A stretch of 64,000 nt of DNA from Haliclystus octoradiatus (lineage: Eukaryota; Cnidaria; Staurozoa; Stauromedusae; Haliclystidae), in NCBI GenBank assembly GCA_916610825.1, contig OU744452.1, forward strand, positions 11,016,110-11,080,109. Direction: 5' to 3'. The position numbers and the translations under genes were made by a program. Under the pieces are notes generated by a model. The model had not been told where the DNA came from. It ran no database searches and worked only from the letters and a program-made list of their open reading frames with translations. Positions 3,001 through 15,000 of the stretch are shown one piece after another. Each line of letters opens with the position of its first letter. The stretch's first letter is position 1.

Positions 3001-6000
3001 TAATAAATATTATCCAATAGCAGTAAAACAGTGCTCAATGTCTGTTGACAGAGCTGTAAATATAAATAGAGGAGTCAAAGACTACACATTTTGTTACTGT
3101 AACTTGAAGTTTCACGCTAGTTTTTCTAGTTTTAACTGTCTGATGATCGCAATAAAGCGTGAAACTTCAAGTTACAGTAACAAAATGTGTAGTCTTTGAC
3201 TCCTCTATTTATAATAATAATAATAATAATATTAATAATAATAATAATAATAATAATAATAATAATAATAATAATAATAATAATAATAATAATAATAATA
3301 ATAATAATAATAATAATAATAATAATAATAATAATAATAATAATAATAATAATAATAATAATAATAATAATAATAATAATAATAATAATAATAATAATAA
3401 TAATAATAATAATAATAATAATAATAATAATAATAATAATAATAATAATAATAATAATAATAATAATAATAATAATAATGCCCAATGCGGTTATTACTCT
3501 GTATGACTACATCAGACCTTCAGAGTACGTTTTCCACGACTTTCATCTTCATGGGGAATGACGACGGAATAACATCGTGCAGAGGCTCTTGCCTATAGTA
3601 GCAATTCTAGCGTTTTCCTGTTTATTTCCGTGAGTGTCGTTACGGCTTGAAGCAATCATAGGATTGTCTTTACGATGGTGTTGTTTCTGTAATTTTATGC
3701 AGATGTAACAATTCATGTTTTGATTCCACTTCAGTGTCTTTAGATGTCGATCATGCCATTTATATATTGAGCTATGCTGCTAATCAATTTCTAAAGATCG
3801 TCAAAGAAGAAAGTAAAGCTTATCAACTGGGAACACAATCAAGTGAGTTCATGTTTTCATTGTCACTCATTGTGTAATGTTAGGATTAGCATTTGAATAC
3901 ATTTTTAAGTTAAGAGGGAACTTATGTCAATCACTGCTATAATTAATGTGGCTAACGAAATGTCTAGCCTTCAGGAATCTTATAGAAAATTTTTAATTTT
4001 CGTCTTGAGTTTTGGTTGAGGTTTTGGTCTATAAATCAGAAAAATATGAATTGATTTAGCCTTCTGCGATGTAGGATCACAGGATCCCCACGTTGTCAGA
4101 CCGTAAATAAAAATAGAATAATTATCATAATCATCATGTGCTATATTTTGTATCAGATGCAGTTGCATGGAAGCGTGCCGTGCAAGGCGTCCGTGAACTA
4201 TGTGATGTCTGTGCAACAACTATTTTCAATATCCACTGGGTGTGTGAGAAGTGTGGCTTTGGTGTTTGCTTGGATTGTTACTATTGCAAAATGGAACACG
4301 ATTCAAGACTGTCAACAGGTAAATGGATATATTTTAGAGGGGCTCTATAGGGGTGTAATTGTTGGGTGATAGGAGAAGTTTCCAAAATTCACGTTTCACA
4401 TATGCCAAAACCGTGCAATTTCCTTTCACTAAAACTTATTCTTCACAGCAATTTATGAACTTCTTCTTGATCAAAACTTTGTTCTAAATTGCCAACGGGA
4501 TATCTATTTAATGTATAGTTTTGAACGAAATGAAAGTTTGATCATTTTTTGTATTAGTTTCTACTGTATATTATTGCGTTTGACAGTTTCTTCAATTTGA
4601 TTTTCAGATGGAACAAGAAGTAGGATTCCCTTTATAGATTCATCTGCGTGGATTAGTTGTGCACCTGGTGTGTGTCATAGACCACAAAATCTTACTGTTA
4701 CGCAGATCATACCACGTAATGGTAAGTATAATGATGGCTTTAGATGGCTTAATCAGCGTCATAAAGGATAAACAAGATGTCTTTGTACAATTTTGACGGT
4801 GGGGTGCCATTTTGAATAAAGCCTTGGAACTCCTCAAAAGATCGTAAAGACATAAAGTTCCCCATATTTGTACTTCATTTCATACATTTTTTGAGGTGTT
4901 CATATTTCTTCTCACAAGTCTTTGAATTATAAATTTTTTGCTATATTTTCTCGGGATTTACATTTAGTGTATCAATATTGAATGTTTTCAAATTGTTCAG
5001 GGTAACATCGCCATATGCTCATTTGAGCTTCCCTATTTAGACCCATTCTGGAGAAGTTACCCCTGAGCCTGATCCGCTGTTAAATATTTCGTTTTTAATT
5101 GAAGTGTTTTGTATTTTATTCAGTTTTGTGGATATTAAGAAAGCAAGTTATACTATCATGTCGATTGGTTGGTGTAGAACTGAACAAGAACAATTTACAA
5201 ATTCATGCATCGGAATTGACCAATTTGGCTGCCTCTTCTACCGCTAGTGCTCTAGAACCTATTGTTAAATCAAACAATAGCAATAGCATATTGTTAAAGC
5301 CAACAACTGCTGCTCTTGGTGATGGTAAAAAGGTCCGTACGTCCACAATCCCTTGCATAAAGGAAACAAACACCTCAAACTCAAACGGCACAAATTGTCC
5401 ATTGTCCACATTAAACGCTTTAGATGTTCTTGCTGCAGTTGCTATTAGCTCAACAACTGATACGAAGAAAGAACCACATTTGAATTACAGTGGATTAAAT
5501 ACTTCCTTGAAACTATTTACGTCACCACTTCAACCATCAGTCCCATCTCACTATAGTATGTTGTGTGATAATACGTTGCTATGGCTAACGGATGGACATC
5601 ACGAAAAAAGTCAAGATCTTTTTCTGAAACATTGGAAGAAGGGAGAGGTCAGAATTTTTATTTAATGATTTATCACTTTCCCGCTAACCTGTTTACGCTA
5701 TAGACTAGAAACTTTTTCTACCGCTAGTATACATGTGTACGTTTTTTAACTGGATTACATTCCCGACGGACGCCAATCAATAGCGCCACCAATCATTTAA
5801 CCCTAGACCCTATTGCTGGAAATTCATCGAGAAAGTGTATAGCGCAACTATACATCAACGAGAATAACGAGAGAGTGTATCAGTACCTTCCGATACACCT
5901 TCCCCCTATTCCAAGTAAAAACTAGGCAATATAACAACTATATTACGATAAACAACGATCAAGGTACATTTATCATCATCATCATCATATTTTTATTCAG

Positions 6001-12000: not shown

Positions 12001-15000
12001 AATCCAAGGATTTGCACTTAATAAACTTAATCGAATACATTTCCTAGATATTATTACATTAGAATTCTATCTGTATATTATATGAATTACCAAAATCATA
12101 ATCACAATGTTTTATTTTTATTTTAGGTGCTCAACTTGCATAGCTGCATAAAAGTAGCTGAAGACTTCGTAACTCCAGAGGTATGGTTACAACAGTGATT
12201 GACTCAACCAACAGTCAACTTCTTTCACATTATATGAATGACAGACATAAAGACACATTAAACATGAAACGTACACATTAAATGCATGAAGGAATGATGT
12301 TTATGTCGAATGACAACAATGGGCATTGTTTTACTCTACATTATTTGTCGATTAACCAAATCTAGACGTTTAATAACAGGCTGAAATTAAAATCGTCAGT
12401 ACAGTATCGTGATAGCCAACACCCTGGGGGATAACTTCGTATTGTTGATATACGGAAAAGCTTCTTGGTCTTAAAACGTTTTTGGGATATATATAGATAT
12501 ATATATATATTAGATATTATCTAATAGCAAAAAATAGTGCTCGATATCATTTGACAGAGCTAAATATAATAAAAGGAGTCAAAGACTACACATTCATAAT
12601 TGTTACTAATAGTTCCATGCTTACGCAATCATCAGACAAATAAACTAATTCCTAAAACTAACTAAATTAATTACTTTATTTGTCTGATGATTGCGTAAGC
12701 ATGAAACTATTAGTAACAATTATGAATGTGTAGTCTTTGACTCCTTTTATTATATATATATATATATAAATAGTAGATCAAAGATCACGAGTTTATTCCG
12801 TTACTCTGAGTTTCGCGTAAAGACAAAACCGTCTGAAGAGCGTCTTTACGCGAAACTCAGAGTAACGGAATAAACTCGTGATCTTTGATCTACTATTTAT
12901 ATTGCTCTGCTTTTAGCATTGAGCACTCAAATTGATGTTTTGCCCACACAATTACTTTATTATATATATATATATATATACTTCAGAACTTTCAGAAATA
13001 TTTCGTACATTATTTTTTCCAAATGAGCAAATCATTACGATGTATAAAGCTGTATAAATTCATTGTTATATGCATTGAGAAGAATATTTTGGGAATTCAG
13101 TTTGGCCTGAATAAATTTTTTTTGATGTATCAATATTTGAAAATACAAAATGTTTCTGAGGAGCGTTTTTGACTTTATCTGAAGCTCCTATATAAGTCTC
13201 CTCCTTTCAGGGGCAACATGACGGGGTTTTCGTTGTCTTCTTAAGGTTTTTGAGCATAAAGACAATCGATTCTATTTCGAGCTTCTTAATAAGCAATTTG
13301 TAAATCTATACCTTTGTTCTATTTCAGAATATTGACAAATGCTGTCAACTGACACAAGAATTCCGCCATCTTTCAGACCAACACACGAACCATGAAGACA
13401 AATTACAGGTTGGTGTTATGATTCTGATGTCCGCGTAATTGTAATAAATATATGATATAGAAACTACGATACAATGACAACATTTCACTTTCGATCTACA
13501 TCCATCATCTGTCCGTTGCCATGATATATTGGTGTTGCATCGGAAAGTTACTGCGACGACCAATTTGTTTGTTTTTGTTGTTGTTTATTTGTCAAAAACA
13601 TGTTGACCGGATTGTACAGTGAAGAGTAAATTTCCACTTACATATATCCTTATTATACAATAATATATTGAAAGACTAAATGATGTTATAGGATTAAGAT
13701 ATTGTTATTAGTGTTGTACACTTTACATAAACTTTCCAAATTTTCCTTCTCCAATTCCGATTTTAATCAATAATGACTTTGCTTAAACTACCCTCTTTGG
13801 TAAGTTGTTCCACCACGGAATTACACGATTAATAAATTGACGTTTGGTGATATTTAGCCTACCAGATGAATTTCTCAATTGTAGCTTCGATGTAGTTACG
13901 AAACCTTACAGTTTTGTTAGCTGTATAATGAATGATTATATCAAATATTCCCAAAAGCAAGAACTTTCTCGGATCAGTTGATGTTTTCTTTTGCTCCAAA
14001 ACAAAGAATATAGTCAACTGATTTTTCTGTGTTAATTAGACCTTTACGTGCAGGTATCCCTATAAGGCATTTCTAATGATATTATACTAAAATGCGGCTA
14101 TAAAGAACCAATAGGCCTATGCATACAACAAAGCTTATAATGGAAGTAACTTACAGAAAACATAACAGAATGAGAAATAAAAGTTTACTACTATTGAAGT
14201 AAAATATAAAATATGAATGTAAAATACAGTATAACAAATGTAATTAATTCCCTTTCGAGATAATGTTTCGATGACTTGTAATCGATGCCTTATGAATGAT
14301 GACTTATGATCTATACCTTATGAATGATGACTTATGATCGATGCCTTATGATCGATGACCTATGATCATTGACTTATGAATGGTGATTTTTATCAATGAC
14401 TTGTTACGTGACTCTGGAATATTGGTCCTGATCCAGTTTACAACCGCTCCCAATGTGGTCGATTATTAAGCCATGTTTCCCCTATTATCAATGATCAGAG
14501 TAATATCGAGGGTTTTCCGTGTGATATAAAGTTTATTGTATGCAGCTAAATCCGTATATATGTGTCATGAATGAACTGAACAGATTTTTTTATTGTTTAT
14601 AAAATACTGTTTTTATGTTGAGTATCAATCAATACCGATGTCTTAAAAATACTCTTTTGTATATTTATTTTTCCTGTCTAGTCTTATGATTACAGCTTTG
14701 TTATTCACTATTTTTATTTACATTCTACAATTCTACAATCCATATTCCTAAAAAGGTGGAAGTCTGTGTGTGTGTGATGTGTATGTGGTCCAATTTTCCT
14801 CTGTTTTCTCAGTCGGTTCCAAAGCAAGATATTCGAGGTGTATATCGGGCTTCGATTTTTTATTCCGAATTCTGTTTCGCATTACGAAAGAAATTATACT
14901 GTTTCAACGTTCTGACTTTCATGCCTTTAATTGTCGACATAAAAATTTCACCAGGTGTCGAATTTCAAGAACACATCAACATTTGGTATTGTTTTACCCA

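Follow-up and report, generated by a model that had tools for sequence, protein, structure and literature searches.

The 64-kb window of the Haliclystus octoradiatus genome analysed here, i.e., the whole stretch of 64,000 nucleotides, contains three short palindromes (E1, E2 and E3; Table 1), which are most likely tiny head-to-head, 5'-truncated ends of a Penelope-like retroelement (PLE) bearing hammerhead sequence. That they are very short non-coding insertions of such an element appears highly probable. The ribozyme belongs to the PLE 3' end. The insertions are of a known kind, and ribozyme copies like theirs number in the thousands in this genome. The original prediction had seen in them a family of fold-back elements; they are instead inverted terminal PLE copies arranged head to head.

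Table 1. Palindromes, hammerhead sequences and tails in the window.
Feature	Positions	Strand	Remarks
E1 head-to-head palindrome	3061..3213	+	arms 3061-3118/3156-3213, 58 nt, 100%
E1 minimal type I hammerhead with flanks	3134..3180	+	predicted cleavage 3173/3174; U-U at 10.1/11.1
E1 left-arm 3' tail (GCTCTG..GAGCAC block)	3005..3060	-	approximate limits
E2 head-to-head palindrome	12561..12758	+	arms 12561-12650/12669-12758, 90 nt, 97%
E2 right-arm hammerhead with flanks	12678..12722	+	predicted cleavage 12715/12716; U-U at 10.1/11.1
E2 left-arm hammerhead copy	12597..12641	-	core GAAA replaced by GGAA
E2 left-arm 3' tail	12510..12560	-	approximate limits
E3 head-to-head palindrome	12764..12902	+	arms 12764-12824/12842-12902, 61 nt, 100%
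E3 hammerhead with flanks	12827..12871	+	predicted cleavage 12864/12865; all stem II positions paired
E3 right-arm 3' tail (GCTCTG..GAGCAC)	12903..12960	+	approximate limits
Fourth palindrome	55965..56094	.	E2-type left flank (98.8% over 81 nt) and outer arms
Unpaired hammerhead unit	55765..55814	-	55.2 bits by our own covariance model; in its training set

The hammerhead identity of the three motifs is borne out by sequence and predicted structure. E1, E2 and E3 all possess the CUGANGA and GAAA core, three helices and a UH cleavage site. Stem I (ACUGU/ACAGU, UUGU/ACAA and CCGU/ACGG, respectively) and stem III (ACU-NNN-AGU) read as had been claimed, and the predicted cleavage positions, after 3173, 12715 and 12864, agree as well. 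The stem II sequences (CGC/GCG, UGC/GCA and GCGU/ACGC) were also given correctly; what had been overlooked is that the pair adjacent to the core is U-U in E1 and E2, with G-C in E3 alone. Because of this mismatch, at position 10.1/11.1 in hammerhead numbering, a stricter motif scan caught E3 only. A scan tolerating it found E1, E2 and E3 and nothing further in the window; on 200 first-order Markov windows it gave a single match, in 1 of the 200.

The Rfam search named as a check in the original prediction did not support it: no family attains its cut-off within the window. In permissive mode, Hammerhead_HH9 was alone among the hammerhead families in matching E1, with 21.7 bits against a cut-off of 52, and no hammerhead family matched E2 or E3 up to an E-value of 10. 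RF00163 found no match in the Haliclystus genome, and its control likewise gave none. Some miRNA-like Rfam matches below cut-off at E1-E3 are due to the hairpin shape. On their own, the cores show no folding advantage over shuffled sequences (z of -0.90, +0.07 and -1.41 for E1, E2 and E3, respectively). A covariance model of our own was trained on 57 copies. It scored the right-hand hammerheads of E1, E2 and E3, all three of them in the training set, with 65.8, 57.5 and 57.7 bits, and the E2 left-arm copy, which is outside of it, with 48.6 bits.

The stems covary: both sides are changed in 62 cells, whereas shuffling the partners gives 32.5 ± 4.0, and none of 500 shuffles came as high as 62. 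A chance resemblance to a hammerhead would be in line with the lack of an Rfam match above cut-off and with the unremarkable core folds. Against it stand the covariation, the rarity of the motif in simulated windows and the genome itself, in which the exact hammerhead pattern has 3572 matches versus 1 for the reversed control; the probability of mere chance is next to nil. The motifs may, of course, still be catalytically inactive. The covariation had been taken as evidence of selection on structure. The covariation stands, yet not as selection on these three insertions: since the palindrome is a mode of PLE-end deposition, it reflects selection among PLE subfamilies.

The E1 palindrome starts where it had been predicted; those of E2 and E3 start at 12561 and 12764 rather than at 12566 and 12767. 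The right arm of E1 bears the full hammerhead, while the left arm begins at unit position +16. With its GGAA core, the left-arm copy of E2 is predicted to be inactive. The right arm of E1 is devoid of the tail block and continues into (TAA)n, that of E2, also without tail, continues into (TA)n, and the tail-less left arm of E3 begins inside (TA)n. The fourth palindrome has an AT-rich centre and no hammerhead core. For the unpaired unit an inverted partner was looked for, and none was found.

Several PLE traits were found in the genome at large. Inverted head-to-head terminal copies are common: a tight head-to-head pair pattern has 891 matches, in which one symmetric palindrome may be counted twice, versus 0 for the control. 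Sample pieces were taken from the surroundings of every one of the 64 listed pattern matches of contig C1 up to 3,282,713. Of the 55 hammerheads called by motif in these pieces, 33 are accompanied by an inverted partner upstream. For the first 100 places of the listing, the neighbours within 600 bp (n = 25) comprise 16 head-to-head, 4 ++, 4 tail-to-tail and 1 -- arrangements. The optional 3' tail on one inverted end is present too. Exactly one arm carries it in 21 of 28 palindromes, none in 5 and both in 2 (P = 0.005 under independence of the sides), in a set that is partly non-independent, as 3019500/3020025 and 3019300/3019825 seem to be local duplicates and 204813 and 2636571 are close copies. 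By eye, 4 of the 7 palindromes failing this test look one-sided. The targets are AT-rich simple repeats, often (TAA)n or (TA)n: microsatellites flank 21 of 27 palindromes on at least one side and 12 of 27 on both, as compared to 13.8% and 3.0% of random places. The 5' ends of the copies cluster 11-29 nt upstream of the core (50 of 88). Arms starting at the predicted cleavage site, within -4..+3, would be a hint of in vivo cleavage; they are seen in 6 of 88 copies, which is not clearly above the thin background.

Related copies extend upstream into a PLE-like open reading frame (ORF). Its YRDD and YRKP motifs are collinear with a Pfam-recognised reverse transcriptase of the same genome. The similarity to an ORF of this genome in which Pfam recognises reverse transcriptase and GIY-YIG is weak (BLASTP E 0.005; hhalign E 0.004, 8% probability), and Pfam searches with the ORF pieces reached neither RVT_1 nor GIY-YIG. 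A C-terminal VVY..NYIGLT..R pattern, spotted by eye, may correspond to the GIY-YIG motif. The other hits, Aegerolysin in Pfam and RPE2 in NCBIfam, were below cut-off, weak and unrelated; PHROGs yielded no family match and PDB searches no relevant one. Neither ORF matched anywhere in the window.

In 5 of 6 sample ORF copies that reach the last residues, a sample that had been picked by hammerheads, the hammerhead lies 126-177 nt past the ORF end; the remaining one, C1:1499535, has none within 700 nt. In copy L052 the distance from the frame is about 178 nt. An independent check is provided by the 3 of 150 ORF places that fall within the part of C1 covered by the listing (464724+, 4542317- and 4543959+): all three have a hammerhead match on the same strand 126-184 nt downstream. 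The ORF copies, too, face each other. From 150 scored copies, 35 of 44 neighbouring copies of the C-terminal part within 6 kb are head-to-head, at distances of 0.7-4.3 kb.

A DNA-transposon MITE or a fold-back family that had captured a hammerhead would resemble the insertions in the short palindromes, the long inverted arms and the TA-rich sites. The tail, however, makes the two ends unlike, and MITEs account neither for the PLE-like ORF upstream of related units nor for the head-to-head position of the ORF copies, which renders such an origin very unlikely. Another conceivable source is metazoan retrozymes, which are non-autonomous, measure about 170-400 nt and are mobile via circular RNA. 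They share with the insertions the size, the type I hammerhead and the short non-coding unit, and PLEs have been proposed to mobilise them (PMC7761336). Yet the known animal non-LTR retrozymes are described as tandem, with canonical hammerheads and circular RNA (PMC7229834), whereas the units seen here are mostly inverted, their hammerheads are minimal, and related copies have a PLE-like ORF on their upstream side; a retrozyme is, therefore, very improbable. Type I motifs as such can be abundant: over 6000, minimal ones included, were counted in a coral genome (PMC7229834).

The closest relatives in kind are found among the PLEs, to which the minimal type I form had correctly been said to point. 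Minimal type I hammerheads with a very short helix III occur in terminal repeats of PLEs and Terminons, usually without any helix III (PMC7761336, PMC6155905); here, a stem III of 3 bp with a 3-nt loop is present in 47 of 55 called motifs, from pieces selected with that stem in the pattern. Penelope (Pen) of Adineta vaga has inverted pLTRs, most frequently head-to-head, one of which bears a tail at its 3' end, as well as solo pLTRs, palindromes where the inverted copies meet and simple AT-rich targets (PMC3846280). The Haliclystus copies share all of these traits with Pen. Pen differs by its low copy number, a tail of 31 bp and pLTRs near 200 bp in length, and hammerheads are not mentioned in the main text of that article (PMC3846280); here, in contrast, there are hundreds of tight palindrome matches without an ORF between the arms. 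PAc, the Poseidon PLE of Anolis carolinensis, has a hammerhead upstream of two start sites of reverse transcription between which the tail lies. Both strands of its target are cut and extended at AT-rich sites with a preferred ATT cut, unprocessed RNA is the main substrate in vitro, and the PAc ribozyme depended on the protein of the element (PMC11167929). The order of hammerhead, start sites and tail, the cutting and extension of both strands and the AT-rich cut sites are as proposed here. However, PAc is described with tandem repeats and a ribozyme overlapping the ORF start (PMC11167929), while here the head-to-head layout prevails and each arm tends toward a different start site.

The palindromes could have been built as follows. 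In the PLE 3' end, the minimal type I hammerhead would be followed, after roughly 40-50 nt, by a first start point of reverse transcription and, roughly 60-80 nt further and after the tail, by a second one. The PLE endonuclease would cut within AT-rich microsatellites, after which each of the two broken strands would prime cDNA on the element RNA, at a start point of its own. Synthesis would pass through the uncleaved ribozyme and often halt 11-29 nt upstream of the core, probably at the RNA 5' end. Joining of the two cDNAs head to head would create a palindrome with its 3' ends outward and the tail on one side.

The two arms of a palindrome seem to begin at separate start sites of reverse transcription, as would be expected if each strand of the target had been primed. 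This is the newest point; inverted ends, one-sided tails, AT-rich targets and minimal hammerheads have already been published for PLEs. The same PLE origin might also lead to a palindrome by self-priming, if the end of a single copy folds back and the first arm then serves as the template for the second. Such a mechanism is the preferred model for Pen, there on an antisense template (PMC3846280). In its favour, 8 of 28 palindromes have aligned arms with 100% identity, 17 of 28 have an inner gap of no more than 49 nt, and the nested arms in E3, 1827513 and 266631/267063 fit the copying of arm from arm. Yet 21 of 28 have arms whose 3' end points are not the same, and by eye each arm has sequence missing from the other in E1 and 2935354/2935743, which a later central deletion could also explain. 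Self-priming appears possible, if rather doubtful; priming on two strands is slightly the better bet. Only tentatively do we generalise that integration of the PLE here regularly takes place through target-primed reverse transcription from two sides, with one start site per strand, on RNAs often starting just upstream of the ribozyme.

The antisense arm had been suspected to work as an off-switch of the ribozyme. Support for this is limited to thermodynamics. The whole hairpins have folding energies of -96.2 (E1), -124.8 (E2) and -101.9 kcal/mol (E3), which far outweigh the -7.6, -5.5 and -10.9 kcal/mol of the isolated cores; cleavage is therefore expected to be blocked in transcripts spanning both arms. 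Transcripts that read through an insertion should have their ribozyme masked by the long hairpin. Of regulation no sign was seen, and the proposed switch looks like a by-product, because the hairpin is so much more stable than the ribozyme. The three motifs lie on the strand of a KDM3B-like JmjC exon (11387-11671, +), which would suit a working intronic ribozyme switch of KDM3. The thousands of copies across the genome and the masking by the hairpin, however, make it barely credible.

The origin of inverted PLE ends and of the one-sided tail was left open for Pen (PMC3846280), and later steps of PLE integration were termed unvalidated for PAc (PMC11167929). The hundreds of tight head-to-head matches amount to many simple natural end products, in each of which both arms, both junctions and the apparent 5' end can be read. 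The window also holds a hammerhead variety that present Rfam models do not call there, and the PLE hammerheads of this genome are packaged such that double-stranded RNA should conceal them. If integration indeed proceeds from two primed strands, its footprint would be a large number of palindromes of every length, arranged head to head, and from these the origin of inverted PLE ends could be decided.

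E1, E2 and E3, the three palindromes of the window, lie within a few bases of where the original prediction had put them, and the hammerhead plan claimed for them is indeed there: CUGANGA, a stem II of 3-4 bp, GAAA, a UH site and a stem I of 4-5 bp are all present. Stem III is in each case a 3-bp ACU/AGU helix with a 3-nt loop. A strict motif scan detects E3 alone, because the core-adjacent pair of stem II is U-U in E1 and E2. If this mismatch is allowed, the scan yields exactly E1, E2 and E3 in the window, and 1 match in total in 200 first-order Markov windows. Rfam did not recognize the motifs. 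Zero families scored above cut-off in the window; E1 reached 21.7 bits with Hammerhead_HH9, which is below cut-off, and E2 and E3 had zero hammerhead matches. Nor did the isolated cores fold better than shuffles. The case for hammerheads rests on copy numbers and covariation instead.

Features of the window and related places on contigs C1 and C2 of the same genome
Feature	Position	Strand	Remark
E1	3061-3213	+	cleavage expected after 3173
E2	12561-12758	+	cleavage expected after 12715
E3	12764-12902	+	cleavage expected after 12864
Inverted repeat	23404-23586		84-nt arms (82%), without hammerhead; perhaps a MITE
Two near-identical stretches	35351 and 38375	-	~3 kb apart; common CTGACGA..GAAA string, rejected as hammerhead by motif scan; probably a local duplication
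568-aa ORF	50961-52667	+	phosphatidylethanolamine-binding domain (PF01161)
CTGATGAAGGCTAATGGCCAGAAACATGTACTTGTC	56244	+	different hammerhead-like motif
Copy of CTGATGAAGGCTAATGGCCAGAAACATGTACTTGTC	C1:2709217		stem I of 7 bp
Locus L025	~C1:1500880-1500970		palindrome purely of post-cleavage sequence, without ribozyme core, adjoining another copy
Sixth ORF copy	C1:1499535		no hammerhead within 700 nt
Locus L051:61-2554	C2:28185200-28188500		hammerhead-like motif ~115 nt past frame end

The assembly of the same genome (261.9 Mb, of eukaryotic content) contains 1753 + 1819 exact matches to the pattern CTGANGA-N(6-20)-GAAACTNNNAGTNAC, as compared to 1 + 0 for the reversed pattern. Thousands of hammerheads per genome are already known; PMC7229834 gives over 6000 for a coral. 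The sample consisted of 41 merged pieces (270,132 bases) surrounding every one of the 64 matches that the list gives for contig 1 as far as 3,282,713, and a motif that demands pairing called 55 hammerheads in it. Covariation was analysed in 57 pattern-chosen sequences, 54 of them distinct (53 from the contig 1 sample, 4 from the window); stem III, being imposed by the search pattern, is uninformative here. The covariation of the stems that had been predicted is borne out: with the reservation that relatedness of the copies inflates these and the following shuffle tests, 82.4% of the cells were paired (shuffles, 78.9 +/- 0.8) and 62 cells were changed on both sides (shuffles, 32.5 +/- 4.0), values equalled in 0/500 shuffles each. 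In the same set, neither the pairs in which both sides had changed (6) nor the further pair types (15) exceeded shuffles. Stem I has at least 4 bp in 46/64 (mean of 2000 whole-strand shuffles 32.2, maximum 39), stem II at least 3 bp also in 46/64 (mean 33.3, maximum 41). Despite the relatedness, the matched stem pairs CUGU/ACAG, CCGU/ACGG and UUGU/ACAA each recur among the copies.

Upstream of several hammerheads the DNA runs into an ORF, which reads ..NYIGLTKGTFKQRYTQHKSSF..KKCNLCLTEKLHII..NKRSELISKCRHENKFYL.. at the loci L015/L016. At L052 an open frame of 801 residues starts with ~300 residues of microsatellite, continues with GLYRDDG and YRKP motifs and ends with the same C-terminus; a hammerhead lies ~178 nt beyond it. 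Six ORF copies of the contig 1 sample reach the last ORF residues, and five of them have a hammerhead 126-177 nt further on. Since this sample had been selected by hammerheads, ORF copies found independently of them were also examined. From 2975 candidates for the C-terminal part, 150 copies were scored; the three located in the C1 stretch covered by the list of pattern matches are all followed, 126-184 nt further downstream, by a match on the same strand. We read the ORF as that of a Penelope-like element (PLE), encoding its reverse transcriptase and GIY-YIG endonuclease, the formal support being weak: it has zero Pfam matches and a weak similarity to the ORF of L051 (BLASTP E 0.005; hhalign E 0.004 at 8% probability). 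L051 matches RVT_1 (1.9e-10) and, barely above cut-off, GIY-YIG (1.2e-4) of Pfam. It is a second PLE-like family of this genome, different from that of the hammerhead palindromes.

An inverted partner is found within 500 nt upstream of 33 of the 55 hammerheads. The first 100 listed genome places comprise 25 neighbours within 600 bp, of which 16 are head-to-head, 4 ++, 4 tail-to-tail and 1 --. Among the 150 scored ORF copies, 35/44 neighbours within 6 kb lie head-to-head, their starts being separated by 0.7-4.3 kb. Finally, a pattern of two head-to-head ribozymes 8-38 nt apart gave 891 matches, its reversal 0. In view of this common habit of hammerheads and ORF copies, head-to-head insertions with 5' truncation form a range, and E1-E3 are its short extreme.

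The antisense arm had also been proposed to switch cleavage off. By energy the hairpin is favoured: the whole palindromes fold at -96.2 (E1), -124.8 (E2) and -101.9 (E3) kcal/mol, the isolated cores at only -7.6, -5.5 and -10.9 kcal/mol, respectively. As the antisense arm is transcribed first on the + strand, the emerging ribozyme should become trapped in the hairpin. Nothing that was observed points to regulation. The left-arm ribozyme of E2 has a changed core, GGAA instead of GAAA.

In 50/88 copies, homology to a long relative ends 11-29 nt ahead of the core; the set includes the 8 references themselves, and within it homology may fade early where a copy is of a distant subfamily. The ends cluster directly after a GTATRTTTTTCATTA-like stretch, present with few changes in 7/8 references; judged by position alone, they look like a transcript start. 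Only 6 copies of another set of 88 begin at the expected cleavage site, so that uncleaved templates seem to be the rule, as likewise reported in vitro for PAc, the Poseidon PLE of Anolis carolinensis (PMC11167929). A UCUUUG-like motif, seen ~50-55 nt after the core start in most of 13 references though its neighbourhood diverges, could serve in protein binding or priming. Microsatellites lie in both flanks of 12/27 palindromes and in at least one flank of 21/27, as compared to 3.0% and 13.8%, respectively, of places drawn at random from the same sequence, the 27 being those scored for the tail minus 2328384.

A unit either stops at about +70-85, counted from the core, or extends, via a GCTCTG..GAGCAC block, to about +130-160; the extra part is here called the tail. 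It is present on exactly one side in 21 of 28 palindromes (25 from the contig 1 sample, 3 from the window), on neither side in 5 and on both in 2. By eye, 396382, 2935354 and 3239187 (scored none) and 3020025 (scored both) are one-sided as well. Independent sides would give 13.8 one-sided pairs (P = 0.005, which is only a guide, as some palindrome pairs are not independent). PMC3846280 describes the same for other PLEs: adjacent inverted pLTRs, most often arranged head-to-head, with a tail optional at the 3' end of one of them, junctions with palindromes, and simple AT-rich targets. According to PMC11167929, two reverse-transcription start sites bound the tail in vitro, and both target strands are cut and extended. 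In bulk, the strands did not differ there. Our palindromes fit the use of one start site for each strand.

Ribozyme palindromes derived from reduced PLE ends did not turn up among the titles and abstracts searched, a scope that covers the PLE/Terminon hammerhead literature in part and implies no claim of absence from print. Every single element of the structure is already published; the aspect worth following up is the footprint of one start site per arm.
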